This document shows, one piece after another, positions 10,254 through 32,094 of a stretch of 64,000 nt of DNA. Position 1 is the stretch's first letter. Each line of letters opens with the position of its first letter. The notes below the pieces were generated by a model. The model saw only the letters and a list, made by a program, of their open reading frames with translations. It did no database searches and was not told the origin of the DNA. Source of the stretch: Siphonodentalium dalli (lineage: Eukaryota; Mollusca; Scaphopoda; Gadilida; Siphonodentaliidae); the NCBI GenBank assembly GCA_032622095.1, contig CP136068.1, positions 11,453,729 through 11,517,728 of the forward strand, written 5' to 3'. A program made the position numbers and the translations under genes.

Positions 10254-11184
10254 AAGAGATATGCAATATCATTTTCCGGTCATCGGGACTACATAACCAT
10301 ATTTCTGGAGTCATGCGGATTAAAATTATATACGACACCCCGTGTATTACTTCAAATAATATGATAATATGCAATGCATATATAGAACAACCGCGACATA
10401 ATAGTAAGAAGACGGACAATGCAAAGGATCGTGCAAATGATCATGGAACTATATGCCAATATATATTATATAGGCCTTTACGCATTTCAGCGATGCGAAT
10501 TCTTGATTGTTAGTGTAGATCGTTTTGGATGCCAGTGGACTTCGATAAGTACATAATGCCCTAATAGCAACCGCATCGGGCCGAATTGTTATCACCGCTG
10601 GGTGCAATTGCTCTCACAATGAAATGGTCAAATCACGGAATCGGCAGTGGACCAGCGGGATGATTATGAAATTAGCAACTTCAGTTTTTCCGAATAACTC
10701 CTATGTGATTTAGGCCTATAAATTAGTTTAATTTTGGCCAATTTCGTTGCTTAGCTCAACGAAAACAAGCGAAGACGTCATGACATGGTCCATGACGTCA
10801 TTGGCGTCATTTGGTTTTGTGGGCCAGAATCCAGACGCATTTGGTGTCCGCTGGAAACACTGATTTCACATCACTACACTAGACATCATGATATATACAC
10901 ATACACACCTCAATAGAGGCTCTATCAGCACCGCGTATAATCGCTTTTGTTAGAAATTCGGAAACAGCTTATTTAATGTATATTTGTCTTTAATAAGCCT
11001 TTTCTATTTCCTGCGTTTATCGATCTTTTTTAGTCGCCAGTACGCAAATGAATGCTTTATTGCAAATACACAAATCAATCAGTAACACGAATAACATTTT
11101 ATATCCGATATGTACACAATAAATATGGTACCTCCCCCCTCCCTACACACGTGTTGTTTGTTTGGGTTTCTTTGTTCATTGATT
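10254..11184. other. Non-coding stretch
   Basis: No supported gene. Clustered tgacgtcat motifs lie near 10777-10815 (three occurrences within about 40 bp), which resemble CRE sites but may be chance or repeat-derived. Confidence 0.4.
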
Positions 11185-11835
11185 GCAGCGCGGTGTCGGG
11201 GCATCGCCTTTCAATTGCGCTTGGGTGCAGCGCAATGTCTCCGCGCCGAAGTGCAATTGCGATTGAGTGCAGCGCAATGTCGCCCCATCGCAGTGCAATT
11301 GCGCTTGAGTGCAGCGCAATGTATCCGCGTCGCAGTGCAATTGCGCTTGAGTGCAGCGCAATGTCTCCGCATCGCAGTGCAATTGCGCTTGAATACAGCG
11401 AAAAGTCGCCGCATCGCAGTGCAATTGCGCTTCAGTGCAGCGCAATGTCTCCCACCGCAGTGCAATTGCGCTTGAGTGCAGCGCAATGTATCCGCGTCGC
11501 AGCGCAATTGCGTTTGAGTGCAGCAAAATGTCACCGCATCGCAGTGCAATTGCGCTTGAGTGCAGCGCAATGTCGCCGCATCGCTGTGCAATTGCGATTG
11601 AGTGCAGCGCAATGTCGCCGCGACGTAGTGCAATTGCGCTTGAGTGCAGCGCGATGTCACCGCACCGCAGTACAATTGCGCTTGAGTGCAGCGCAATGTC
11701 ACCGCGCCGCAGTACAATTGCGCTCGAATGCAGCGTACTGTCGATGCACCACATTGTAATTGCGCTTCGGTACAGTGAAATGTCACCGCAATGCAGTGTA
11801 GTTGCACTTCAGTATAGGTGCCGTGTAACGTAATT
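11185..11835. repeat. 42-bp minisatellite open in several frames
   Basis: Fourteen to fifteen units of 42 bp, each with the core cagtgcaattgcgcttgagt and then gcagcgcaatgtc. Variation sits mainly in the 'tccgc/gccgc/tcaccgc' part. As 42 is a multiple of three and stops are rare, frames of 120-235 codons stay open on both strands. The units contain short inverted motifs (ttgcgc…gcgcaa) and could form hairpins. I treat the frames as repeat by-products, since no upstream coding context or domain supports a protein. Confidence 0.85.
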
Positions 11836-12949
11836 GCGCCTGTGTCCGAGTGGTTGTTTCTATGAGTATGCAATGAATGTGCTGGATGAAATTATGAACG
11901 GATTCCATCCGCTGAAACGTCAATTATATAATGGACATAATCAGCAATATGTTTTCGCTGACCAATGCCAGTATTCGCTTCTAATTTTATTAGAATACAT
12001 TGACGAACGAGCCAGAAAAACCGACTTCACGCGCGCTTATATGACCTTGTCGCCATCGGGTTACACGTTTTATTGACTGCCGAATATCATCCAAGCGGAC
12101 ATCGCAAGCAACGTGTGCGCCTTCACAATACGAGTTCTTAGAAAGAAATATCATGCGAATCGGCCCAATAGAAGTGGAGATAATTGGATTATTGCCCTTC
12201 GCGTGGAAGCTTGATGACACCACGTGATCCTGACTATAAGTCCGGCTAGTTCGCAAACTAATAAGAGTTCCGCCAAACCGATTACATGCCTGTGGTCAGC
12301 TTTCAACAATCTTTCCAGCAAAACAAAATTTTGCGCTCTTACCGTTTGTTTGAAATTTTGTTAAAATATCGACAGAAAAGTTCAGGGAAAAGTAACGACC
12401 CTCGGGGCGGAGAACTTTGCAAAATGTAAACAAACTTTCCATTTGATTGAATTTTTTTTATTTCTGGACGAATTTCGTCGAGTAAAGTATCATTTTGTTC
12501 GCAGTTTTACGCTGCATCTTATGTCGTAAGGGAAATAGAAATTCGAGAAGAGGATTTACTGCGCTATACTAGAATCGAAATCCAATAGAAATCGATCACC
12601 TCAGACGACCGGGTCGCTACAGGAATCGGCGCATCTGCTGTTTGAGTCAGTTAGATCTCATCACTCCGTCTACCGAACCACATACACGTTTGCGGGGCAT
12701 TAGTCTTCCATGTCATCATATGCATCACAATATTGAGCCTGCTACAACTAGAAATACATTGTAGAATTGGGGCATAATATTTATCTGACCACCTATCTCT
12801 ATTATTCTTTCAGGTGCACTGACAAGATGTGTTACATTCAAGAAATTTACACGATTCAGAAGATTGAAGACTGTAATATGTGTTTCCATAATCTAATATC
12901 TAAATATATGTAACTCAATCATGGTTACACCGTGTTATCTTGAGATCCC
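11836..12949. other. Non-coding stretch
   Basis: Two overlapping frames of 80-88 codons at 11834-12256 lack any recognisable feature. Nothing else supported. Confidence 0.35.
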
Positions 12950-19155: not shown

Positions 19156-19345
19156 TCTACTATATAATTTGAGACTTCCGTATATATGTGGGTACTTCAT
19201 AGAATCGAAAACGCGTGTAGGAACGGGCATCCCCACGGCAATGTCGGCTTATAAGACATCTTTACTACACATGACAACCGGGTCTCTATATATGCACCAA
19301 AATTACGCCACGTTGGTGACTGGGAAATTCCAGGGAATGCCGATT

Positions 19346-19722
19346 TGTAATGAATGTGCATATAATATTACAAATAAACTCACCGATAGTAAAGTCTGTG
19401 CAGGTGTAGATAGTGTATGAATAACAATAATCATCAGCAAAAACATATACGTCTGTTTAATAAGTTGGTTTGGATTGAAGAGAGCGGGCGATGACGTATT
19501 TCCCACAATTCCGTAGTTCCGCTGAACTCCGTGAACATCCGCTCCTCTTCGTGTGTTTCCGGTGAAATCCGGCACCATCTTTATAGAGTTACCTTTCTTC
19601 AGTTAGCTAACCAAAGTGGCCTCGCATTCCTCTATAGTATCAGGTTAAAATCATCTCTTCAGCGAGCGGAACAAACGCACGATATTTACGCGCTATTTAC
19701 TTAAAAACCCATAAATACAACA
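19346..19722 (-). repeat. 3' LTR (377 bp)
   Basis: Downstream LTR in element orientation; same length and, by eye, same sequence as 31162-31538. It holds the TATA-like motif at 19579-19585. The inner edge abuts a purine-rich tract and the outer edge abuts GATT. Confidence 0.95.
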
Positions 19723-19736
19723 CTCTTCCCCACTTT
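19723..19736 (-). other. Polypurine tract
   Basis: In element orientation the last bases before the 3' LTR are AAAGTGGGGAAGAG, a purine run of the kind that primes plus-strand synthesis in LTR elements. Confidence 0.8.
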
Positions 19737-20058
19737 AATAAAAAAGAACTACTTGCCTACTCCAACCTTGCGGGAAAGTGTATTTCAATCCCCATTAATG
19801 CCAAAAAGGGGAGTACAGTTCTCGGAGACATGTTTAACACCTCTCCGAGACCTCTCAATGGACTCTACTCTAGTGAGTTCCATTAACCCATCAAAATGTA
19901 TATATTCCAGAAGTAAAAATGACGCAATGTGCGACTGTAAAAATGCTGTATTTACACAATAGTCCTGGCATTAAAAGATGCAGCGGCATCCTCCAATTTA
20001 TACAAGGCGACAGGACAATCTGAAAACAACATCACGTAGGTTCTGAAGCTTGGGGGAT
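19737..20058 (-). other. 3' untranslated part of the retrotransposon
   Basis: About 320 bp between the stop of the third ORF and the polypurine tract. It has a small inverted pair (gttctcggagacatgttta, then cctctccgagacctct, near 19819-19855) and no reading frame of note. Confidence 0.6.
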
Positions 20059-23000
20059 TCAGCTGGATCCTCCAATCTTGAATAGGTGTACGGCGTTGAA
20101 AGTGGTCACCGCTAATACCTGCTTCAGTTGCATGTTTTTAATGTCTGCTACTTTCAGTGCCACCTGACCCAGATGGATGGGGGTCGTTGCCCGCAGTCCC
20201 AGTCTTTCGCCGAAGAACGGGGCGTCTGTCTCTAGCAGCAGTCGGTCCAGCGGGACCGAGCGCAGGCCTTCTTTTTGGACAGGGGAGAAGTCGTAGCAGG
20301 CAGCGGTGAAACCAAAATAGCTGGACGAGAAAACTCTGGACCAATCTGCCACCATCTCTGCATTCCCCATGAAACAGTGGATGTGGAATTCCTGCATCGG
20401 GGAGCAGATTTGCCGACATTTTTCCAGAGCCAGATAGAAGACTCCCTCGTTCAGCTTGTCGTCCGGCGTTCCTCTGAGATGGAGTATTATTGGTTTTCCG
20501 ATCCTGGCTCCCATCTTAAGCAGCTGCTTAAAATGGTAGAGTTGAAGAGCCTGATCTGCTTCACTCAGTGGTAGAGATCTGTCCAACCCAATTTCTCCAA
20601 TCGCCGCGACATGTGGTAGACTGACCAACATCTCTAGATGTTGCCGGAAACCCTCATTTTCTAATAACTTAATCTTCTTAGGGTGACAACCCACGGCGTT
20701 CCTCCAGTTAGAATCTCCGGGCAGCTGCGCGGAGGGATACTCTTCTGGGTCGCAGTGGATGTTAAGGCCTCCCAGCAAGGTGATCGGAACAGTGGAACTC
20801 GTTCTGTCCCGGAGGATTTCTAACGCTTCAGTGATAGATGCCGTCTGAATCTTGAATCGATTCGCCATTCTGTTCAGATGGAAATGGGAGTCTATCCCGG
20901 TAAGATAAGGCAAATCCATCAAAGATTGTATCGTTGCGGCATTGCAGTCATACGGAGGTTGATTTGGCACGGACGTCTGTGTTTCCTGAATCGTTGGCTG
21001 ATTCCTCGGCGACTGTTCCGTGGTCACGGTCCTTCTTTCCTCCGTCTGCTGTCTACCATTTACGCTTGATTCCTGTGATGTGCCTGGAATGGCTGCTGCC
21101 GTTTCCAGGGTACCTCTCACGGGACACGGATGCTCTATCCGCACTGTTATTTTCCTCTGCTCTGACCGGGGTATATTCTTTGGTTCGGCCCTGCTGGGTC
21201 GAATATCTGCGTTTGTTCTACTTGAGGACCTTTCCAGTTCGCCCCTGCTGGGACGAGAGTCAGGTCGCCTGGCTGCCTCCGAATCTTCGCCTCTCCTCCT
21301 CTTTGGTGGATGGAGCAGCAGGGCAGCAGCGATCAATGGGTCCTTGGCCGATTCCGCATCTAACCCTCTTTTTGCGGTCTCAAGGGCCTTTTGGACCTCC
21401 TCTTTCGAGATCTTTCCCGACTTGATATGTCGCCGCTTCTTCTGTATTTCATTGGGTGGGATGTTTTGAGGGCCCATGAAATGGTTCAGCTGTGCCTGTG
21501 ACAGATGGTTAATTAGCAGACATATAGGTCGATAATGTATCATACAGACCGGGTGATTCAGAGGTTGTAGGTCGAAACAGGGCGGCACCTGCCACCCCTG
21601 ATCAATACAGATTTTTGTCATCGTCCGGTGATATCCTGCCGAAACTGTTGTTATTTTAGGAATGATGTCAGTACATCCTCTTAGTTTACGGTTGGCCCAC
21701 CGGACCAGCTTCTGCAGCGTTGCCCAATCTGACCTTCCTTTTGTGTGGGACAGCTCATCAGAAGATAACTCCTGCTCGAACAAAGCCTCGCTTATTTCTA
21801 CGAGGTCTCTCATCATTTTCATTCTTTGGGACTCGGTCGGGACTTCATCTTCTTCCACCCACCAGCGGGTAGGTAGATGTGTACAGAACATGTGTCGACG
21901 GAAAGGTTTCGGGTTAAAATTACACCCGATCACCGGACATCTTGCGTCTTGACTATTTGACGGTGCTGGGTGAAGTGTGACCCGAGGGTTAAACGCCACC
22001 CTCCTTTCCCTTGGTCCTGAAAAAGATCTTTCTCGAGACTTTGGAGAAGACTGTCTATACGGCATTGAGGAGGATCTTCGAGTTTCCGTCTTCTGACTGA
22101 AACTGCCCTTCCTTGAACGATATGTTGATGAGGGCCTTGGCGCTCCCGCCTGCTGGCTGAAACTCCGTCCCCTGATTTGTGGTTCTCTTGGCTTTTGAGT
22201 TTCCGTCTGCTGACTGAACCTCTTTTCTGTTGTGCTTGGATGGTCTGGAAAATAAGAGTATTGTTTCACATCAAGTATTTGTCTTCCCTTCTTGGAAGAG
22301 GATACCACCTGAGCATACGACTGTTTAGAATACTCTACTCTTTTGTAAGGGCTATTTCCTCGGAGTTGCTTGGGGGAATTGTCTTCCGAAAGTTCTGCTG
22401 AACTTTTACAGGTCCCCAATATTTTGTCAATTGATTCAACAATCCGGGCATCGGTATCAAAACTTACATCCAAATCATTTACAGTTATTACCGACTTATT
22501 TGAAACTCCCTTGACTACAGGTGTGGAAACCTTAGAGGGGGGTTGGTGGTTATTAGCTGACCTACCTGGAGCAAATGGTCCCACGTTCCTGTCTATCCAT
22601 TCAACGCTCCACTCCAGGAACTGATAGGCGCCCATCTTGGACTCCCGGAGCCAGTCCCCCATCTTCTTGGACTTGGCCAACCGCACTTGCTTCTTAAAAG
22701 CTTCTTTTCTTTGATCTTCAGACCAGCTGGTCAGAAGAAGCGAAGCCGCCAAATGGTTTGGGCTGTGGTAGATGATGTTGTTTAGATTCTTTCCATCTAT
22801 TTCAGCTTCCTTCAACAGGCTATCTTTTGCCTTGCTGTTGAAATCTTTCCATGCCCTTTTCTCGTCCGAATCGCTCTGGTTCTCTGTCCCCACATTCTGC
22901 AGAATCTGGGGTTGTTTTCTAATCACTTCCTCGGCTGACTCTTTGTCTTCGAGCACCATGGTGTTACTTTGCCTGTCTTCCCTCAGCGGAGGGGAGGTGT

Positions 23001-23109
23001 CAACCACCATGTTCTCCTTTTCCTCGTTTTCCTCGTCAGATTGTAATAGGATCTCGTCATCCCCGGCAGCTGCAAGGGAATCGGTCTCCATTCCTTCTTC
23101 CTGCGACAT
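20059..23109 (-). CDS. Third ORF: TatD-family nuclease protein of retrotransposon
   Basis: The 1016-residue protein begins at ATG 23109, 30 nt after the pol stop. The N-terminal ~360 residues are acidic and then Ser/Arg/Gln-rich, probably disordered. A C-x4-C-x9-H-x4-H finger lies at about 388-410 (CPVIGC…HMFCTH). Residues ~430-560 form an unrecognised, possibly folded region; ~600-700 are Arg/Ser-rich. The C-terminal ~285 residues match the TatD metal-dependent nuclease family: DSHFHL (~735), GCHPK, IGEIGLD (~837), ILHLRG (~875), HCFMG (~913) and ETDAPF (~963). All the usual metal-ligand positions (HxH, E, H, H, D) are present, so it should be catalytic. The layout, long disordered N-terminus plus C-terminal TatD, resembles animal TATDN2, a likely source (inference). 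There is no signal peptide or membrane segment, so it is not an envelope. Expression is probably from a spliced RNA. Its role in the element is unknown; trimming or resolving DNA or RNA:DNA intermediates is a guess. Confidence 0.92.
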   Translation of the reverse strand: MSQEEGMETDSLAAAGDDEILLQSDEENEEKENMVVDTSPPLREDRQSNTMVLEDKESAEEVIRKQPQILQNVGTENQSDSDEKRAWKDFNSKAKDSLLKEAEIDGKNLNNIIYHSPNHLAASLLLTSWSEDQRKEAFKKQVRLAKSKKMGDWLRESKMGAYQFLEWSVEWIDRNVGPFAPGRSANNHQPPSKVSTPVVKGVSNKSVITVNDLDVSFDTDARIVESIDKILGTCKSSAELSEDNSPKQLRGNSPYKRVEYSKQSYAQVVSSSKKGRQILDVKQYSYFPDHPSTTEKRFSQQTETQKPREPQIRGRSFSQQAGAPRPSSTYRSRKGSFSQKTETRRSSSMPYRQSSPKSRERSFSGPRERRVAFNPRVTLHPAPSNSQDARCPVIGCNFNPKPFRRHMFCTHLPTRWWVEEDEVPTESQRMKMMRDLVEISEALFEQELSSDELSHTKGRSDWATLQKLVRWANRKLRGCTDIIPKITTVSAGYHRTMTKICIDQGWQVPPCFDLQPLNHPVCMIHYRPICLLINHLSQAQLNHFMGPQNIPPNEIQKKRRHIKSGKISKEEVQKALETAKRGLDAESAKDPLIAAALLLHPPKRRRGEDSEAARRPDSRPSRGELERSSSRTNADIRPSRAEPKNIPRSEQRKITVRIEHPCPVRGTLETAAAIPGTSQESSVNGRQQTEERRTVTTEQSPRNQPTIQETQTSVPNQPPYDCNAATIQSLMDLPYLTGIDSHFHLNRMANRFKIQTASITEALEILRDRTSSTVPITLLGGLNIHCDPEEYPSAQLPGDSNWRNAVGCHPKKIKLLENEGFRQHLEMLVSLPHVAAIGEIGLDRSLPLSEADQALQLYHFKQLLKMGARIGKPIILHLRGTPDDKLNEGVFYLALEKCRQICSPMQEFHIHCFMGNAEMVADWSRVFSSSYFGFTAACYDFSPVQKEGLRSVPLDRLLLETDAPFFGERLGLRATTPIHLGQVALKVADIKNMQLKQVLAVTTFNAVHLFKIGGSS

Positions 23110-23118
23110 ACTGTATTA

Positions 23119-23143
23119 CTGGAATAGTGAAAAACTGAATTAG
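23119..23143 (-). promoter_or_regulatory. Candidate 3' splice site before the TatD ORF
   Basis: On the minus strand the text is CTAAT (branch-point-like, overlapping the pol stop), then a pyrimidine-rich run TTTTTCACTATTCCAG. The AG ends at 23119, 9 nt before the ATG at 23109. This is the expected position for an acceptor making a subgenomic mRNA for the third ORF. Not proven by transcripts here. Confidence 0.6.
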
Positions 23144-26100
23144 CATGTGGGGCAAGTAAATGTATCCATTGCTTGACCAATTTCAGGTGAAATGTTAACG
23201 CATTTACCATGGTACCATTTACAACAATGGTCGCATTGAATCATGAATTGTCCCCGGTAAGCTTTCTGACAAAAACAATACGACTTCGTGGATTTGGGGG
23301 TAGAGACTATGCCTGTAGTTTTAAAGTTTGTGACACATTTATCCAACCACGGTGGTAGAGTGTTCTCGTAACATCTCTTTAGTCTATCATGGTTAGCTAC
23401 GACAATAGCCGAATTCAGCAGAATTCTGAACAAGTAAGGGGTGAAAACCTCGGCAATTATCCCCGGACCTTTCCAAAATGGGGCCAATTTCCGGTTTTTC
23501 CCTTTCACTTTGGCCGTATCTAACATGTAGACTAAATCGCCCACCTCGTATGTGTGTTTAAGTATAGACACGTCATAATTTTTCTTCATTTTTTCTTGGG
23601 AGGACTTTAACGTCTTCCTGGCCATTTCGTGGCAAGTTTGCAATTCTTCCCCCAATTTCTGGACATACTCCGGAAACGTCTTATCATTTTCATCATGTTT
23701 CAGCGGGAACATAATGTGCGTGGGGTGATTTACTTCTCTCCCCAACATTAATTTATTTGCAGTGAAACCCGTACTCGAATTAACCGAGGAACGAAGTGCC
23801 CCAGCAAGTTGGGGGAGGTATTTATCCCAGTTTTTCTGTGCTTTCTCTACATAGCACCGCACCGCGTCCATCAACGTACGGTTTTGTCTTTCAATTTGAC
23901 CGTTAGAACTTGGTCTGTACGGGGTAGAACGCGTCTTATGTATTTGTAGCAGTTCGCATACTGAAGAGAAAAGCTTGCTCTCAAAACACGGCCCTTGGTC
24001 AGTGTGTATATTAAACGGGCATCCAAACCTAGCGAAAAATTCATTAACAGCCGCCATCGCTGTGGTTTCCGCTGTTTGGTCGGGCAGAGCGATGCATTCC
24101 GTCCATTTTGTAAACTGATCGATTATCATTAAAATGTAACGGTTGTTTTTCCAACTTAGAGTAAGAGGGCCCAAAAAATCCATATGAACGCGTTCCATGG
24201 GAGCTCCTGCATGGAATTTGGTGAGCTCCCACTTAGCATGTCGGGTAGGTTTTTTTCCCTGACTGCATTTTGAACACGCCTTCACATACGTTTCCACATC
24301 TTTGTTTAGGCCAAACCAGTGGTAATTTTGTTTTATCCTACTCAAAGTTCTGGTTATCCCCTGATGACCAGAAGTTGGAATGTCATGGGCTATCGCCAGA
24401 ATTTCCTTAGCGAATTTCTTTGGAAGAATAGTGGCCAAGTTTCCATTTTTTCTGATTTTCTGGAGGATGCCATTGTTTAACTTAAAACGCGAGCGATTTA
24501 TCCAAAAATACTTGGCCGCTGGACTGGCAATAAACATTTCGGCTTCGTTAGGTTCCACCCCCTTATCCAACCAATTTATTACTATTAGTAGGTCGGGGTC
24601 AGCTAACTGTTCATTGGCCAATTCTCCCGTTTCGCAAATCTCTGCAAGCGAGACCTCATTGGAATCAGATACTGATTGAACCAAAATTAAAGGTTCAGCA
24701 GAATCTTTAATTTTCAGATCTAATTGAGTGTGGACCCAGCCACTTTGATTATCAATGGACCCATATTGAAATTTGGTTTCGGACCATTGCTCTGTTACAG
24801 GCCATGGTAGAATTGATATTTCTTGAGATAAACTGCTGTCTGCTGCCACTCTGCTTGTCTGCGATATTTCGGGCATTTCGTTCGAAAATTCTATGGAACC
24901 TTTAGTTAGAGGTATCGCGTAATCTACTTCTTCGTTAAAACGCGCCCAATTTTTGTGCACTCGGATGCAGTATTTACAAGCGTTGCAAGGCAATCCTGCA
25001 GGAATGTCACCGGCGCTGTAATTATAACACATCTCGGTTAAAGGCGGTCGCGATAGTAGATCGGCATTTGCATGCTTTGCGCCAGGGCGATGTTGCACTA
25101 TCATGTCGTACTGGCTCAATTCCTCTAACCAGCGAGCTAATTGGCCTTGGGGTTCTTTGAAACCTATTAACCACCTGAGGCTCCCATGATCTGTTCGCAA
25201 TATGAAATGTCTACCCAACAGATAATGTCGATATTGCCGCGTGAACCGTATTACCGCCAGCAATTCTTTTCGGGTGGTACAATACCGGATCTGCTGACCC
25301 GATAATATAAAACTTCCATAGCATATGACTCTCTCTTTCCCATTTTGAATTTGGGAAAGCTGCCCACCGATCGCGAAGTTGCTCGCATCGCAATCTAAGA
25401 GAAAAGTGTCTTTTCGATTGGGTAGAGATAAAACCGGGGGGCTGGTTAAGACTATTTTTAATTTATCAAAAGCTTCCTGTTGCTCAGGCCCCCAGCTGAA
25501 AGCCCTTTTGCCTGTGATGGCATACAACGGTTGTGCCAACTCAGCGTAGTTTTCTATAAATTGACGATGGTAATTGAGAAAACCACACAACCTTTGTACG
25601 TCTTTTGCGTTCTGAGGTTCTGGCCACTTTTTTATGACCTCTGTGGATGATTCCAGTATTTGAATTCCGTCTCTACTGATTTTTCGTCCCAGAAATTCGA
25701 CAGTTTGTTGACAAAACACGCATTTAGCTGGTTTGAGCTTTAAATTGTATTGTCGAAATCTCTGCAGAACCGTGCGAATGTTTCGGAAGTGCGAGTTAAT
25801 ATCAGCACCCATGATCAAAACGTCGTCCAAGAAACATAACGAGATGGACCAAAGTAGGCCCTGAAGCACCAAATTCATTATTCGCGTGAACGTAAACGTG
25901 GCTCCACACAAACCGAATGCTAATTTCCGGAATTCGAACAATCCATATCTCGTTATGAATGCTGACTTGGGGCGGTCTGATACTTTTAAATTGACTTGAT
26001 GGTACGCACTTATGCAATCGGCCTTACTTGCCCATACGTTTCCAGCAAGTGCATCTAATGTTTGGTCGATAAGAGGAAGTGGGTAGATTTCGCGCTTTGT

Positions 26101-27384
26101 CACAGCGTTTAACGCGCGATAATCTAAACACCAGCGAACTGAGGAATCTCGTTTACGAATGAGTACCGGTGCCGAACACCACTCCGAAACCGAGGGTTGA
26201 ATGACGTTCGCTCCCAACATCTTTTTAAGATGTGCTTCTTCCTCATTTATAAAACACAGCGGTGTTCTACGCATGCGTTGGCGCACCGGAGAAGCGTCTC
26301 CAGTGGGAATGGTATGCTCTATTTCCGAGAATTCGCCCAAATCAAATTCATGTTTCGCAAAAACGTCTTGGTATTCGCATAAAATTTCGGCCATTTCTTC
26401 CGCTTCAGTTTGATCTAAAAGCATGATTGAACGATCGTATAGATCCTGTAAATGTGCCGGTATGCGACTTGTTTTGCGTACATGCCCCGTTATGTGCAAG
26501 TGTTGAAAGTTATTCGCTGCGTTGTCCTGGCCGCTGTCCGGACAAATATCAGGGGGTGATTCATCATGCGACGTCTCGGTACGGTCTTGACCGTCCTCAT
26601 TTAACGGAAAAGTGGTCTCAATTTCTGACGCATGAGAAACTAACTCGTTGCGTCTCAACTCCACACTATTTTCGTTTAAATTTAGTATTCCAATTTTAGG
26701 CTTGCTACCTGCATCGTGTAATGTACTAAAAATGATCAAACCATGACGCGCAATTGGTTCAATTATATATGTGTTCAAATTCGGCTGAATTTGACACCGT
26801 AATAACATTACTGACCTAGGTGGAATTATCACGTTTTCCTCTATTGACACTCTAGCGACATAGGCTGGCAGAAATTTAACGTTTGTGATTGACGTGATTG
26901 TGTCTTGTCCCAGAGACAAAGTCCCATCACTTACATTGATTCGGGCCTGGTGTTTACTCAAAAAGTCAATCCCTAACAGCATCTCATCCACAATCGGTGC
27001 TACATAAATATTTTCCAAAAATGTAACCTTCCCGATTTTTAGTTCTACCGGACCAATTTGATTTGCTGACATTTGGCTTCCGCGTTCGGCTGTATTGAGG
27101 CGGATAGTCCGAATAGTTGGAGGTTTCGAAACTAGTTTGTTATAAATACCAACCGATAAAATAGTCACATCCGCAGCTGTGTCTATTACTGCGGTTATAT
27201 TTACGTCGGAAATCACAATTGGAATTTTGATGGTTGAGAACGATTTGACTCTGTTGATGGACAAACAACTGTCGCCTGGCGTGTCAGTAATGGTAGTAAT
27301 TTGTGTAAGGTCATTCGTTGAAGATTTGTGGGTCGTAATCAGGCCTCGGGATCCGACCCCTTGTCTTTTAAATGTTTTTCGAAG
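23140..27384 (-). CDS. pol: Pol polyprotein: PR-RT-RNase H-IN-PHD finger
   Basis: The pol frame is open from 27384, overlapping the gag end, to the TAA at 23142-23140. There is no upstream ATG in the overlap, so it is probably read after a -1 shift near 27366. Numbering from the codon at 27264, domains are: protease (IDTAADVTIL, ~27-38; DTA-A instead of the more common DTG/DSG); RT (~340-520, with KADCISAYHQV and FLDDVL, the latter replacing YxDD); RNase H (~615-740, LLDCDAS… RTDHGSLRWL); a Cys-rich linker; integrase HHCC (~958-1000) and DDE core (MDFLG ~1026, HTDQG ~1087, GQIERQNR ~1124); a GPF/Y-type module (PFWKGPGI…); and at the very end a C4HC3 PHD finger (~1326-1373: CFC, CDHC, WYH, GKC, CPTC). 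A PHD finger in the place where chromoviruses keep a chromodomain suggests targeting to histone tails (inference). No disabling change seen. Confidence 0.95.
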   Translation of the reverse strand, partial: LRKTFKRQGVGSRGLITTHKSSTNDLTQITTITDTPGDSCLSINRVKSFSTIKIPIVISDVNITAVIDTAADVTILSVGIYNKLVSKPPTIRTIRLNTAERGSQMSANQIGPVELKIGKVTFLENIYVAPIVDEMLLGIDFLSKHQARINVSDGTLSLGQDTITSITNVKFLPAYVARVSIEENVIIPPRSVMLLRCQIQPNLNTYIIEPIARHGLIIFSTLHDAGSKPKIGILNLNENSVELRRNELVSHASEIETTFPLNEDGQDRTETSHDESPPDICPDSGQDNAANNFQHLHITGHVRKTSRIPAHLQDLYDRSIMLLDQTEAEEMAEILCEYQDVFAKHEFDLGEFSEIEHTIPTGDASPVRQRMRRTPLCFINEEEAHLKKMLGANVIQPSVSEWCSAPVLIRKRDSSVRWCLDYRALNAVTKREIYPLPLIDQTLDALAGNVWASKADCISAYHQVNLKVSDRPKSAFITRYGLFEFRKLAFGLCGATFTFTRIMNLVLQGLLWSISLCFLDDVLIMGADINSHFRNIRTVLQRFRQYNLKLKPAKCVFCQQTVEFLGRKISRDGIQILESSTEVIKKWPEPQNAKDVQRLCGFLNYHRQFIENYAELAQPLYAITGKRAFSWGPEQQEAFDKLKIVLTSPPVLSLPNRKDTFLLDCDASNFAIGGQLSQIQNGKERVICYGSFILSGQQIRYCTTRKELLAVIRFTRQYRHYLLGRHFILRTDHGSLRWLIGFKEPQGQLARWLEELSQYDMIVQHRPGAKHANADLLSRPPLTEMCYNYSAGDIPAGLPCNACKYCIRVHKNWARFNEEVDYAIPLTKGSIEFSNEMPEISQTSRVAADSSLSQEISILPWPVTEQWSETKFQYGSIDNQSGWVHTQLDLKIKDSAEPLILVQSVSDSNEVSLAEICETGELANEQLADPDLLIVINWLDKGVEPNEAEMFIASPAAKYFWINRSRFKLNNGILQKIRKNGNLATILPKKFAKEILAIAHDIPTSGHQGITRTLSRIKQNYHWFGLNKDVETYVKACSKCSQGKKPTRHAKWELTKFHAGAPMERVHMDFLGPLTLSWKNNRYILMIIDQFTKWTECIALPDQTAETTAMAAVNEFFARFGCPFNIHTDQGPCFESKLFSSVCELLQIHKTRSTPYRPSSNGQIERQNRTLMDAVRCYVEKAQKNWDKYLPQLAGALRSSVNSSTGFTANKLMLGREVNHPTHIMFPLKHDENDKTFPEYVQKLGEELQTCHEMARKTLKSSQEKMKKNYDVSILKHTYEVGDLVYMLDTAKVKGKNRKLAPFWKGPGIIAEVFTPYLFRILLNSAIVVANHDRLKRCYENTLPPWLDKCVTNFKTTGIVSTPKSTKSYCFCQKAYRGQFMIQCDHCCKWYHGKCVNISPEIGQAMDTFTCPTC
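27330..27372 (-). promoter_or_regulatory. -1 ribosomal frameshift signal, gag/pol
   Basis: In the gag frame the minus strand reads CAT TTA AAA, giving the heptamer T TTA AAA at 27372-27366, which fits the X XXY YYZ slippery rule. After a 6-nt spacer (GACAAG) a GC-rich stem can form between GGGTCG (27359-27354) and CGACCC (27335-27330). The pol frame is -1 relative to gag and open across this point, and gag stops at 27339. Heptamer, spacer, structure and frame all agree. Confidence 0.82.
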
Positions 27385-30300
27385 TTAACTTTGGCCTCTT
27401 TATTGGGTTTGTTGTTAGCGTTCTTTACGGGGCACTCTCTAATCATGTGACCGTAATCGCGACAGAAAAAACATTGGATTGGTCGACTAGGCGAAGGCGA
27501 CCGTGACATCGTTTTAACTGGCTGTTTACTAGTATTACTGAGCACCAATTTGTCTAATTTTCCAAAGACGGTTTCAATTTTTGTCTCCATAGATAGCATT
27601 CTTGACTTCAATGAATGTATATCATTGTTAGACGCGCCCCCTGGAGACTGGGAACGGGAGCCGCGGCCTTCGCGGTCTTGACTCCATCTAGGTCTAAACG
27701 ATTGCGTTCTGTTATCGTCTGTTTGTCTATTGGAACCCGGGCTCCGATTAAACCTGCGGTTATTTCGGTTAACGGTACGTGATCTATTTGGTGATTGTAC
27801 TGCCCGGACATGGCGGAGTCCTTCGTCATCCGAATCTTCTGATTCGGATTTTACCCTCCGAACCCCGCGCCGCGTTCGGTCTGAGCCCCAAATCGCTACT
27901 TGGGTGCACTGGTAAAGTCGAACTTGGTTAATGGCGTCCTTTAGAGTCTCCGGTCTCGCGTTCGCAACATGCCCCCCTGCGTGCCGATCAGTGGCCCCTT
28001 GGCAGAAACGTTGAATGGCTTGCGCATTCACCTCCTGTGGGGGGTGACGTGGGAAAGCGCGTTGTGCCAATGACAAAACTGTTTGTGCCCACTCTTCCAG
28101 AGACTGGTCCGCCTCTTGCTTAAGTTGCATGAATTGCAACTGCACGGACTGCGGAAGATCGCTGGGTTCAAACCGGCTCGCCAGTAACTGTAAAAGTTCC
28201 AACGACTCGTAATTTGGATTTTGATGCAACATGAGAGTAAGATAATCTCCAGCCTGGCCTGTTAGACACCAACCCAAAGCAGATTTGCGGGTTGGTTCAT
28301 CCCAACGCTGTGTGTTCGCCAAGGTATCGAACTTCATACGGAATGTCAGCCAGTTAGATATTCCGTCGTATGAAAAGTTATACGGCAATTTGGGAAACCA
28401 ATTATTGGGTTGATCTTGAGCTGCAGCGGCAGGCTCAGGATTTGGGTACATGTTACCACCCATGACTTGTGGAATCAATTGTTGATTATTTGGAGGTATG
28501 GGCGGCATGTTGCCCAAATAACCCAAATTTGGTGGCGGTATCGGTGGGGCGTTCCCACCTGGCGCAAGAAAACCTTGATTTTGCGGAGGTATTTGTGGCG
28601 CCATAAAAACCGGATTCTGTGGCGGTACGGGAGGCGCGTTCCCACCTGGCGCAATAAAACCTGGATTCTGCATGTTTACTGGTGGCGCATTACCCCCTGC
28701 AGCAATAAAACCTAGATTTTGCTGCGGTACTAATGGTGCGTTCCCACCTGGCGCAATAAAAGCCTGATTTTGTGGCGGTACTGGTGGCGCAATCCCACCT
28801 GGCGCAATAAAAACCTGATTTTGTGGCGGTGCCGGTGGCGCATTCCCGCCTGGCGCAATAAAAACCTGATTTTGTGGCGGTACCGGTGGCGCATTCCCGC
28901 CTGGCGCAACAAAAGCCTGATTTTGTGGCGGTACCGGTGGCGCGTTCCAACCTGGCGCAACAAAAGCCTGATTTTGTGGCGGTACCGGTGGCGCGTTCCA
29001 AACTGGCGCAACAAAAGCCTGATTTTGCTGCGGTACTGGTGGCGCGATTCCACCTGGCGTAATAAAAGCCTGATTTTGTGGCGGTACTGTTTGCACATTA
29101 CCACCTGCTGGTGGCGGCCAGGAATAAAACTGATATTGCTCTACTCCCCCTTGCGTAACAACCATTTGTGGTGTTACCGGTGGAACATTCTGAGTAGAAA
29201 CTACACTCGGATTGCTCGAAACAACCATATTGGTGGGGTTAATTAATGCTTGGACTTGAGGTGCTGCTGCATTCGCAATATAATGGTTTGGCGGAACCGG
29301 GGGATTTGCCCCCATTAGCATTGCTACACTAGATGGTTGAATATTGGTTGGGAGTGGCGTCTGCTGACACGACTGTTGACTAACCACCGGAGTGTATGGA
29401 GGGTTTGTATTTGGTTGGCCCGTAATAGGAATATAAGGCACCATTTGACCCTGTGCATTCGTTAGCATCCAAACAGTTTGCTGTTTGGTGTCATGTCCAC
29501 CCCATGGTGCTGTAACCAATTTACTGTTACTCATCGGAACAGGACTACTCGTTAGGGGATTGACTGTTTTCCCCACGGGGAGATTTTGCCCATTTCCTGT
29601 TGACGGAATTGGCGAAACTGTTTGCGCCCTCGCAAGCATGTTTGTTGCTGACGCTAAAGTTGTCTGATTAAAATCTGCCCCTGGCGGCAAATTATACCCT
29701 GGTGGTGGAAGCATGTTCATTGCAGGGTTAATTTGCAGTGCCTGAGCTTGATGTATTTCTCCGGGTTGGTTTATCACCGGTTTGCTAACTGATGACCCGA
29801 ATGAGGTAAGAACCCCGGTTTGAGGTGCGTTTGGGGGCACAAAACCCGACACCGAGTACCCCAACCCAGCTTGACCCGTCGCTAGTGGCCCAGAAAATTT
29901 CCCTGAAACCATGCACGTATCGGAGGTAGGCATACCCCAAATCTTTGTATTAGTCCCCCATGGCGTCCGATCAGGGACATAGCCATGTGGTACTGACATT
30001 GTGGGCATGGCCCAAGATGTCGGCTGTACTGGCGGTGTCTGAATTGTCTCGTGTTTTGTCCCATTCAGCGGAGCGGGATTAGTCACCATTCGGGATGTCT
30101 GACCCGTTCCTGTACTGGAACAGGTGTAGGTTGACATCGGCACTTGGGTGCCTTTCCAAATCGGCAATTCCCACTTCTCGGGGTCTGGTTTCCACGTTTT
30201 GGAAACTGGCTTCTCCCCCCTTGTGGTCCCCGGATTGGTGCCCACATTAATATGAACTATCCCATCTTTTGTTTTCGGTCTCACGACATCATGACTCTCC

Positions 30301-30800
30301 AATGAATGTTGTAAGCCCCCTTGATTTGAAAACGCGGTGGGAACATCATAGCCCCTATCAGCAGAAAGGGGAGGGGATGGTGGTGTGAACATCTCCCGAA
30401 ATCTCGACCTATCTAGTCCATGTGGGGAACCCATTATGGCGTCAACCACTTTATTTATATCGGACACCTCTTCCTCTCTATAATCGTTCTGCTGAACAAT
30501 TGTGTGGTGGGAGGTGTTGAGAGGGTCACGCGTGCTCGGGATATAGTTATCCACGGGAGCCCCTTTCGGCGGTATGTGGAAATCCAACAACAACAATTGC
30601 TCTTTGGGTATTCGCATGTGCGATATACCCATCATGTCGTCTCTGGACACAAATCCCATCAACCGCCTTTTTTCAATGATGCTGGCTGCCAATTTGGGAC
30701 CAACACCCTGTATGCTCTGTAGCTCGGCAAAGGAAGCGATATTCACATTTGTCCGAGTAACCGTCGGTGAGTCCGTATTGGCTGCTGCCATCACCGACAT
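27339..30800 (-). CDS. gag: Gag protein with N-terminal HhH motif and zinc knuckle
   Basis: 1153 residues from ATG 30800. Residues ~17-75 form a helix-hairpin-helix region of the ComEA type (VNIASFAELQSIQGVGPKLA, then a second helix ending in a MGIS/IP loop), a motif that binds DNA backbone without sequence specificity. Residues ~75-560 are Pro/Gly/Gln/Asn-rich and low in complexity. About eleven 17-residue tandem repeats follow (~565-775, NQAFVAPG…APPVPPQ). A Gag-like capsid region lies at ~797-975 (WFPKLPYNF…, LEEWAQTVLSLAQRAF), followed by an Arg/Ser-rich stretch. A CCHC knuckle, C-x2-C-x4-H-x4-C (CFFCRDYGHMIREC), is at ~1107-1121. The length is about two to three times that of a typical Gypsy Gag, because of the N-terminal extension and repeats. 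It should form the particle and bind RNA. The last ~15 codons overlap the pol frame. Confidence 0.93.
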   Translation of the reverse strand: MSVMAAANTDSPTVTRTNVNIASFAELQSIQGVGPKLAASIIEKRRLMGFVSRDDMMGISHMRIPKEQLLLLDFHIPPKGAPVDNYIPSTRDPLNTSHHTIVQQNDYREEEVSDINKVVDAIMGSPHGLDRSRFREMFTPPSPPLSADRGYDVPTAFSNQGGLQHSLESHDVVRPKTKDGIVHINVGTNPGTTRGEKPVSKTWKPDPEKWELPIWKGTQVPMSTYTCSSTGTGQTSRMVTNPAPLNGTKHETIQTPPVQPTSWAMPTMSVPHGYVPDRTPWGTNTKIWGMPTSDTCMVSGKFSGPLATGQAGLGYSVSGFVPPNAPQTGVLTSFGSSVSKPVINQPGEIHQAQALQINPAMNMLPPPGYNLPPGADFNQTTLASATNMLARAQTVSPIPSTGNGQNLPVGKTVNPLTSSPVPMSNSKLVTAPWGGHDTKQQTVWMLTNAQGQMVPYIPITGQPNTNPPYTPVVSQQSCQQTPLPTNIQPSSVAMLMGANPPVPPNHYIANAAAPQVQALINPTNMVVSSNPSVVSTQNVPPVTPQMVVTQGGVEQYQFYSWPPPAGGNVQTVPPQNQAFITPGGIAPPVPQQNQAFVAPVWNAPPVPPQNQAFVAPGWNAPPVPPQNQAFVAPGGNAPPVPPQNQVFIAPGGNAPPAPPQNQVFIAPGGIAPPVPPQNQAFIAPGGNAPLVPQQNLGFIAAGGNAPPVNMQNPGFIAPGGNAPPVPPQNPVFMAPQIPPQNQGFLAPGGNAPPIPPPNLGYLGNMPPIPPNNQQLIPQVMGGNMYPNPEPAAAAQDQPNNWFPKLPYNFSYDGISNWLTFRMKFDTLANTQRWDEPTRKSALGWCLTGQAGDYLTLMLHQNPNYESLELLQLLASRFEPSDLPQSVQLQFMQLKQEADQSLEEWAQTVLSLAQRAFPRHPPQEVNAQAIQRFCQGATDRHAGGHVANARPETLKDAINQVRLYQCTQVAIWGSDRTRRGVRRVKSESEDSDDEGLRHVRAVQSPNRSRTVNRNNRRFNRSPGSNRQTDDNRTQSFRPRWSQDREGRGSRSQSPGGASNNDIHSLKSRMLSMETKIETVFGKLDKLVLSNTSKQPVKTMSRSPSPSRPIQCFFCRDYGHMIRECPVKNANNKPNKEAKVNFEKHLKDKGSDPEA
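28480..29105 (-). repeat. 51-bp tandem repeat inside gag
   Basis: About eleven in-frame 51-bp units encoding a 17-residue Pro/Gln/Asn-rich repeat (NQAFVAPG-x-NAPPVPPQ). Units differ by substitutions that keep the frame. Open frames on the opposite strand here (up to 158 codons) are shadows of the repeat. Confidence 0.9.
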
Positions 30801-31161
30801 TGTTTTTCACGTTCGGAAAAAGATGTGGCAAAAGCAATTGCCACCTCCAAAAAAAAAAATCCGACGGGCCACGGTGCAAAGAATTTTATGGTGCTAGATA
30901 CAAACACGGTGCGAAGAAATTATGTTGCGGCAAAAAACAATCAATGGGGAGAAAATATCTAGAAAAGACACAGAAAACAGTGTTACATATAATTGAGATG
31001 AAAAGAGAAAAGTGGATTGTAAAAATTATCAAAGATAATTACGGATTGAAAAAATGTGAAAAACTATCTGTGAGAAAATAGTGAAATTACCGGCGAGGAA
31101 AAAATATCAAACAGTGCTTCAAAAAGCGCCAAAGGTCCGTGTAAGGTCGACGACGCCATTT
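30801..31161 (-). other. Leader of the retrotransposon RNA
   Basis: 361 nt between the 5' LTR and the gag ATG. It is A/T-rich in element orientation, with a T run at 30849-30860 and no long frame in the sense direction. It holds the primer-binding site at its start. Confidence 0.7.
31145..31158 (-). other. Primer-binding site
   Basis: Three bases after the 5' LTR the element reads TGGCGTCGTCGACC. TGG pairs with the CCA end of a tRNA. The following bases fit an acceptor stem ending …GACGACG-CCA, which is most like a serine tRNA, but the tRNA identity is uncertain. Confidence 0.6.
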
Positions 31162-31193
31162 TGTAATGAATGTGCATATAATATTACAAATAA

Positions 31194-31200
31194 ACTCACC
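31194..31200 (-). promoter_or_regulatory. Candidate 5' splice site in the LTR/U5
   Basis: In element orientation the sequence is ATCG|GTGAGT, a near-consensus donor, positioned after the probable transcription start and before gag. With the acceptor at 23119 it would remove gag-pol and place the TatD ORF first on the message. Inference from motif and position only. Confidence 0.5.
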
Positions 31201-31394
31201 GATAGTAAAGTCTGTGCAGGTGTAGATAGTGTATGAATAACAATAATCATCAGCAAAAACATATACGTCTGTTTAATAAGTTGGTTTGGATTGAAGAGAG
31301 CGGGCGATGACGTATTTCCCACAATTCCGTAGTTCCGCTGAACTCCGTGAACATCCGCTCCTCTTCGTGTGTTTCCGGTGAAATCCGGCACCAT

Positions 31395-31401
31395 CTTTAT
31401 A
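31395..31401 (-). promoter_or_regulatory. TATA box of the LTR promoter
   Basis: The minus strand reads CTCTATAAAGATGG here. The copy in the other LTR is at 19579-19585. It lies about 140 nt into the LTR, leaving about 230 nt for R and U5. Confidence 0.6.
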
Positions 31402-32094
31402 GAGTTACCTTTCTTCAGTTAGCTAACCAAAGTGGCCTCGCATTCCTCTATAGTATCAGGTTAAAATCATCTCTTCAGCGAGCGGAACAAACGCACGATA
31501 TTTACGCGCTATTTACTTAAAAACCCATAAATACAACAGATTGACCTCAAACTTGCTACCTATGGGAAGTGTCATATATATGAGTTTGTCTTTTATAGAC
31601 TCGAACCGATTGAGCTCAAACTTGCTAAATATTGAAATGCAAAAGTTTTATATTGACTGGGAAATTCCAGGGAATGCCGATTGAGCTACATACGGGAAGT
31701 TTTTCCGCCCTAGGTGATTTTCACCTTGAAGCGGGTACCCACAAATTATATATGCGTGTTGTGTGCTTCTTACGTACTTAGGGCTTCCTGGGAACGCGGA
31801 TCGGGTCAGTTTTTCCGCCCTAGGTGATTTTCACCTCGAAACGGGTACCCACAAATTATTTATATGTGTGCATGTGTCCTTTATAGACTCGAACCGATTG
31901 CGCTAACACTTGCTACCTACGGGAAGTGTCATGGACGGGTTAAATTGTGACCCCGACATGACCTTGACCTTGAAAATGATCAATTCAAGGTCAAATCGGG
32001 TAAAATATTGAAAAACCAAAAATTAATTCAAAAATATTAAAAAACAATTGTCATGTTTCTGACGAACGCCGCCAGTGGTGGGCTAACCTGCTAG

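Follow-up and report, generated by a model that had tools for sequence, protein, structure and literature searches.

A complete long terminal repeat (LTR) retrotransposon of the Ty3/Gypsy type, whose third open reading frame (ORF3) encodes a predicted TatD-family nuclease, lies within a stretch of 64,000 nucleotides from the scaphopod mollusc Siphonodentalium dalli (assembly GCA_032622095.1, contig CP136068.1). This stretch, referred to here as the window, corresponds to C8:11453729-11517728 of the genome that we examined (2.2 Gb in 9 contigs). The element occupies positions 19346-31538 on the minus strand; ORF3 (20059..23109, minus strand) encodes 1016 residues, has its own ATG, and lies in the pol frame after two stop codons, in the env position, behind the stop of pol and ahead of the 3' LTR. 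Its profile match, the LTRs, the target site duplication and the order of the pol domains uphold the initial annotation, which had proposed from the letters alone that a TatD nuclease takes the place of env as third ORF of a Gypsy-type retrotransposon, and on anatomy alone we regard an intact Ty3/Gypsy-type element with a TatD-nuclease ORF3 in that position as near certain. TatD ORFs are also broader in distribution than that annotation held, as they follow two kinds of Gypsy pol, one with a PHD finger and one lacking it, and are also found on a Helitron. We consider it probable that ORF3 of this intact and recent element is a functional nuclease with a standing accessory role, that many subfamilies have inherited it together with pol, and that it acts through the mechanism set out below. 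A standing tool is favored over a chance capture because similar genes follow the replication genes in many related elements of this genome and are also found in gene models from mussel and starfish and in the Helitron.

The TatD domain spans residues 735-1012 of ORF3 (20074..20907, minus strand). In the profile search that the initial annotation had proposed, TatD_DNase matched residues 739-1011 over its full length (positions 1-253 of 253) with an E-value of 6.7e-33 and 114.6 bits (cut-off 27); this match, in an open frame of 1016 codons, rules out a chance ORF. All 13 of the PDB sequence matches listed for ORF3 are TatD-family proteins. Each of the hallmark motifs previously read in the protein was located, with the HxH motif as HFH at residues 742-744, GEIGLD from 838, HLRG from 877, HCFMG from 911 and ETDAPF from 960. 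The six metal ligands, which we take from TatD structures to be the HxH pair, E, H, H and D, are all present (H742, H744, E839, H877, H911 and D962), and the pattern HHEHHD is kept in 57 of 61 aligned rows. The modeled protein has the TatD barrel and matches the folds of TATDN1 and TATDN3. The conserved ligands, together with the modeled fold, make it likely that ORF3 is catalytically active. TatD is the only Pfam domain found in ORF3; the modeled part comprises a zinc finger, helices and the TatD domain. The finger, CPVIGC..H..H (residues 391-411), and a helical block containing LNHPVCMIHYR make up residues 385-605 (21295..21957, minus strand); residues C, C, H, H and P are nearly invariant across the family alignments, and the block is predicted by AlphaFold2 as helices with pLDDT values mostly of 72-96, lower toward its end. 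Inspection of ORF3 by eye revealed no signal peptide or membrane segment.

The two LTRs (5' LTR, 31162..31538; 3' LTR, 19346..19722; both minus strand) are 377 bp long, have TG..CA ends and are 100% identical; BLAST reports a repeat of 379 because two flanking T's also match. A target site duplication, GATT, read from the sequence, stands at 31539..31542 on the 5' side of the element and at 19342..19345 on the 3' side. The identity of the LTRs, with their TG..CA ends and the GATT duplication, indicates a recent insertion. The element's flanks continue a local repeat unit, ..gggaatgccGATTga.., and the same unit runs uninterrupted near 31660-31690, which shows the empty site of insertion. A candidate primer binding site, TGGCGTCGTCGACC (31145..31158, minus strand), 3 nt inside the 5' LTR, and a candidate polypurine tract, the purine-rich AAAGTGGGGAAGAG ahead of the 3' LTR (19723..19736, minus strand), were identified by eye. 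The pol ORF (23140..27384, minus strand; 1414 codons from stop to stop) encodes protease (PR), reverse transcriptase (RT), RNase H (RH), H2C2 and integrase (IN) core domains, and its nearest solved relatives are Ty3 Gag-Pol (7q5b, 2.7e-97) and Ty3 RT (4ol8, 4.6e-74). The LTRs, the target duplication and the order PR-RT-RH-IN are those of a Ty3/Gypsy element.

The window LTR has 32 matches in the genome, of which 14 are full-length and at least 96% identical and form seven same-strand pairs. Five pairs, including that of the window, are spaced at 11.8-11.9 kb; the other two, at 16.9 and 25.8 kb, perhaps hold nested insertions. A DNA search with ORF3 found a copy adjoining the 3' LTR in all seven, with identities near 100% in five, 97% in one, and 95% in one, which is interrupted. 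Copies of the element without ORF3, which the initial annotation had named as the mark of a one-off host-gene insertion, are absent from these pairs; a one-off insertion or an assembly accident is therefore ruled out. Solo, partial and diverged LTR matches were not counted as pairs, including neighboring matches on C7 at about 210.14 Mb (one a 48-bp piece) and 92.9 Mb, on C5 at 132.91 Mb (one LTR length in two pieces) and on C8 at 86.35 Mb (about 70% identical); the ORF3 DNA search gave no match at these uncounted neighbors. Further partial or diverged copies of ORF3, with identities of 93%, 88% and less, are present in the genome, and the TatD profile gave at least 150 matches, every one above the cut-off, from 529 first-look candidates.

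Twenty TatD loci were picked by hand for spread, mostly with long frames and with one copy of the window family (L111) among them, and were searched with profiles made for this purpose from the window sequence and related database proteins. A pol-type domain lies upstream on the same strand as TatD in 20 of 20, with integrase found in 19, the PHD finger in 18 and the zinc finger in 19; L104 has the PHD finger alone in range and L097 is without it. Since these loci were hand-picked, a fixed-step sample was drawn as every 14th of 150 rows (10 planned, results for five): three loci (L121, L122 and L124) have the arrangement RT-RH-IN-PHD-zinc finger-TatD, L123 is a 5'-truncated copy of the L092 family, and L120 is the Helitron. 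Six further short stretches, with flanks of 1.4 kb, gave RT and RH at L114, integrase at L119, and only the zinc finger, TatD or both at the other four. Among nine representatives, chosen after exclusion of near copies and of loci whose integrase matches were short, identities are 53-78% in integrase and 32-61% in TatD, and the two sets of distances are correlated (Mantel r 0.69, a value reached in 2 of 10,000 permutations), which is the expectation if ORF3 has long traveled with pol. One of the 20 hand-picked loci, L106 (C5:240190201-240199969), is a single frame of 2082 codons with RT-RH-IN-TatD and neither PHD nor zinc finger.

A second type of ORF3 is found at L113, where a Gypsy RT-RH-IN, in which we found no PHD, is followed by an ORF of 513 codons that encodes a TatD domain and two finger-like motifs. 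The L113-type TatD is preceded by RT and RH at L114, and L090 and L091 are broken copies of the same type, the latter with an integrase-end-like frame recognized by eye. At L120 (L120:2-7301; C3:265650922-265658313) a frame of 1582 codons with OTU (8.6e-7), Helitron_like_N (1.4e-26) and PIF1 (1e-24) domains is followed by a zinc-finger-TatD ORF, and the combination of Rep/Helitron_like_N and PIF1 identifies a Helitron. Its TatD protein can be aligned almost end to end with that of L113 (30% over 506 columns). The stretch from the helicase end to TatD recurs at six places in the genome, whole or minus 7 bases, four of them at 98-100% (C3, C2 and twice on C7, about 52 kb apart and inverted) and two at 83% (C8), so that helicase and TatD have multiplied together.

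Database searches with the TatD region returned 81 matches, the named sources of which include scallop, oysters, mussels, pearl oyster, clam and sea urchins. A zinc-finger pattern written for this analysis is present in 50 of these, and 29 contain the block N[SH]P[AV]..WR; both patterns miss variants, such as the window itself (NHPVCMIHYR) and P0080 and P0081, with their differently spaced fingers. Two gene models join parts of pol to the nuclease: P0028 from Mytilus edulis has a protease and an integrase fragment joined to zinc finger-TatD, and P0178 from the starfish Acanthaster planci reads H2C2-rve-PHD-zinc finger-TatD. Pfam matched PR and TatD in the former and H2C2, rve, PHD and TatD in the latter; reading of the sequences added the fingers and, in P0028, the integrase fragment. 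Of the 110 proteins matched by the integrase-PHD region, P0178 alone has TatD in the same protein, as expected where ORF3 and pol are read separately. In five TatD/pol pairs both members are from the same source and from contigs of identical size (8,316; 8,390; 9,881; 11,370; 16,046), against a mean of 0.11 in a jitter control in which 0 of 5000 trials reached five; this is indirect evidence that TatD and pol share contigs. These matched contigs, with the upstream pol at all 20 hand-picked loci, rule out a host gene that merely sits beside an element. We also observed that P0042, P0049, P0101, P0110, P0115 and P0179, which are animal-element proteins, are filed under symbiont bins (Sedimenticola, Thiodiazotropha), probably through host contamination.

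An unrooted tree was built from 69 chosen TatD domains, with 17 prokaryotic sequences as outgroup. The ORF3 family forms one clade (99/91) that takes in both gene models joined to pol and leaves P0080 and P0081 outside. Two Lytechinus proteins named TATDN2 by NCBI (P0067 and P0070) fall inside this clade, where they group with P0178 and a protein from Strongylocentrotus (93/78). The suggestion in the initial annotation that such elements may account for multi-copy TATDN2-like annotations thus holds for part of them, as these two proteins lie in the element clade near the starfish integrase-PHD-TatD model. Capture of a TATDN2-like host gene, as the initial annotation proposed, may be the origin of ORF3; TATDN2 is represented in this tree by proteins annotated with that name, and the TatD exons with a CCCH motif of this genome fall outside the element clade. 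In a larger tree the L113 and L120 domains are sisters (100/99); in an earlier approximately unbiased (AU) test that included L090, a single clade for the two types of ORF3 was neither rejected nor demonstrated (p 0.372). Bacterial and archaeal TatD form one group (100/97), and TatD exons with a CCCH motif (L084-L089, four rows used) form their own (98/99), beyond an 83/90 branch from the ORF3 clade. The last are exon-like TatD frames of about 300 codons, some of which follow a splice-acceptor-like site, and their CCCH-like motif was seen by eye and has no Pfam match; L085 and L086, which lie on two chromosomes, share 99.7% identity over 3.7 kb, and L087 and L088 share 98.9% over 3.4 kb. A protein search aimed at true TATDN2 returned 48 rows, all TatD-domain proteins and none named TATDN2. 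Scans of viral contigs gave 0 TatD loci with a single sequence and 3 with an alignment, and in a scan of prokaryote contigs the best 80 of 112 TatD loci were all titled bacteria or archaea. In a viral structure library the one match below 0.001 was an uncharacterized protein of the giant virus Yasminevirus (BFVD A0A5K0U911, E 5.6e-10).

Simple pairwise estimates of dN/dS give signs of purifying selection on the TatD domain of these elements. Between the window and L112, a 93% copy that is itself decayed, the ratio is 0.23 for the whole of ORF3, 0.17 for the zinc-finger block, 0.26 for the linker and 0.12 for TatD; other pairs gave TatD values of 0.10, 0.09, 0.20 and 0.12, and two distant pairs were saturated.

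The gap between pol and ORF3 (23110..23139, minus strand) holds a splice-acceptor-like site (first exon base 23118). This site, 9 nt ahead of the ATG of ORF3, ranks 4 of 768 AG sites in the element on a rough matrix made for this analysis. Four of six subfamilies with short gaps (up to 105 nt, 7 loci) have a top-4 AG within 25 nt of the ATG, namely L092/L094, L101, L110 and window/L111; L097 and L106 were skipped in this scoring. In errantiviruses, env is translated from a spliced subgenomic RNA, and the strong acceptor-like site just before the ATG in several subfamilies suggests that ORF3 may be expressed likewise. We propose that a spliced subgenomic RNA would be translated into ORF3, that the zinc finger and helical block would bind nucleic acid or the element particle, and that the TatD barrel, as a metal-dependent hydrolase, would trim 3' ends or cut damaged sites of the element's nucleic acid; this last activity is suggested by the conserved ligands and the known activities of TatD proteins and TATDN2. 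Other TatD proteins are 3' exonucleases or abasic endonucleases. As substrate we tentatively favor single-stranded DNA ends or abasic sites, in processing or repair, over a step of reverse transcription, because a Helitron carries a related TatD ORF. Helitrons have no reverse transcriptase and share a single-stranded DNA intermediate with retroelements. The broader proposal, to which we give an even chance, is that the zinc-finger-TatD gene is a mobile accessory module that has served unrelated classes of transposable element, both Helitrons and LTR retrotransposons with two or more types of pol, in molluscs, echinoderms and others for a universally needed task, and that many TATDN2-like genes are element genes or their domesticated descendants. 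This task might be the processing or protection of single-stranded DNA intermediates, or the countering of host silencing.

Several observations weigh against ORF3 as a standing nuclease expressed by splicing and inherited with pol. A metal ligand is lost in 4 of 61 aligned rows, and 31 of the 81 database relatives do not match the zinc-finger pattern, many of which may lack the finger. The N-terminal third of ORF3 is weakly constrained (dN/dS 0.44 between the window and L112), and the TatD domains of L102 and L109 differ by 5 non-synonymous and 1 synonymous changes (dN/dS 1.57). Strong acceptors are missing from two of the six short-gap subfamilies (L103 and L105), the best AG within 150 nt ranks between 6 and 180 at 11 loci with longer gaps, and the leader from the 5' LTR to gag offers no clear splice donor (best score 2.3), as GTs with higher scores fall in the LTR and within ORFs. 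Finally, a 100/93 branch parts the second type (L113 and L120), together with P0080, P0081, the bacteria and the CCCH type, from the window type, so that a single common origin of ORF3 is unsupported in the larger tree.

Of the other explanations, an ORF3 that acts on RNA, as a TATDN2-like RNase on RNA:DNA hybrids, in trimming of element RNA or in release of R-loops, is unlikely but deserves the most weight. Human TATDN2 is reported to be a structure-specific nuclease that depends on Mg, cleaves RNA both as a 3' exonuclease and as an endonuclease, and acts on R-loops (PMC10707325), and the modeled ORF3 fold matches TATDN1 and TATDN3, TATDN2 itself being outside that comparison; however, pol already supplies an RNase H, and the related ORF on the Helitron serves an element without reverse transcription. 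Counter-defense, in which ORF3 would degrade host small RNAs or their targets or block silencing, and so be useful to unrelated elements, seems slightly less likely still: the occurrence of TatD ORFs on a Helitron as well as after two kinds of Gypsy pol, and the conservation of ORF3 over very diverged subfamilies, would fit it, but there is no direct evidence, and no link to a silencing pathway emerged, although no test aimed at one was made. We think it improbable that ORF3 is an env-like or structural protein that keeps the TatD fold with catalysis irrelevant, as its env position and the few members with a lost ligand might suggest, given the retention of all six ligands in most rows, the low dN/dS of TatD and the lack of a membrane segment by eye. 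Beyond the single window nothing speaks for a host-gene insertion into one element or for an assembly accident, and the seven LTR pairs, the 20 hand-picked loci and the mussel and starfish gene models leave it a negligible probability.

Errantiviruses and other env-bearing Gypsy elements have three ORFs, with env behind pol. The present element resembles errantiviruses in its three ORFs and in the acceptor-like site before an ORF3 behind pol, and differs in that ORF3 is a predicted nuclease and not a fusion glycoprotein. A precedent is found in the bdelloid LTR elements Vesta and Juno (Rodriguez et al., 2017; PMC5408684), in which the place of ORF3 behind pol is taken by an enzyme unrelated to envelope proteins, in one type a nuclease, and whose ORF types are common to unrelated retroelements (Penelope-like). 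The rotifer enzymes are a DEDDy exonuclease or a GDSL esterase, whereas the enzyme here is TatD; sharing there is between retroelements and here between Gypsy elements and a Helitron; and evolution within the rotifer genomes is reported not to depart significantly from neutrality, in contrast to the TatD dN/dS of about 0.1 in most of our pairs. Animal TATDN2 and TatD proteins share with ORF3 the fold and ligands and, according to the available portion of a recent paper (PMC12709183), a long N-terminus before a C-terminal TatD, whereas ORF3 resides in multi-copy LTR elements and has a C2H2-like finger and helical block. Enzymatic ORF3s are already known; the reach of the TatD version across element classes is unusual. 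Our literature search, which covered few subscription papers and preprints, found no TatD in LTR elements or Helitrons, and TatD does not occur in the main text of LTR surveys of Lamellibrachia (PMC8220671) and molluscs (PMC6238403); in the portion of the giant squid genome report at hand (PMC6962438), a TATDN2 gene is named in a Hox cluster figure and tied to no element. These elements add a new nuclease family to the enzymes carried by LTR retrotransposons, with signs of purifying selection unreported in the bdelloid precedent. Counts of TATDN2-like genes in animals, and TatD proteins labeled as bacterial from bivalve symbiont bins, contain transposon genes. The sharing between Gypsy elements and a Helitron makes the role of an accessory nuclease testable in two very different routes of transposition.

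The integrase of the window element ends in a PHD finger (23143..23277, minus strand; pol residues 1330-1374; PF00628, 3.5e-8), to which the nearest solved structure is the PHD of BPTF (2fui, 2.8e-9), and a PHD finger is listed in most of the 110 related pol proteins; it is a possible domain for chromatin-guided integration. Chromoviruses carry a chromatin-reader-like domain at the integrase C-terminus, a feature they share with this element. Ginger1 transposases are similar, with a C-terminal PHD in one family and, in Ginger1-9_HM, a PHD that accompanies Ulp1, as given in the available text (PMC2836005); the present case differs from both in that a PHD finger nearest to that of BPTF is found in a Gypsy integrase. 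In one related pol protein, P0146, an RNA 2'-phosphotransferase domain (Tpt1/KptA, E 4.2e-43) lies between integrase and PHD finger.

The gag-like ORF1 (27339..30800, minus strand; 1153 residues) is in a different frame from pol and overlaps it by 46 nt. It has an N-terminal helix-hairpin-helix (HHH_3, 1.4e-7; window 30615-30749, minus strand), also present in the Gag-Pol fusion P0138, and matches to zf-CCHC (0.0016) and PNMA (0.0076) that are both below the curated Pfam cut-offs. A 51-bp in-frame tandem repeat, rich in P, Q, N and G, lies within ORF1 (28545-29156, minus strand). Elsewhere in the window, a 42-bp tandem repeat at 11052-11873 has long frames on both strands and is probably non-coding.

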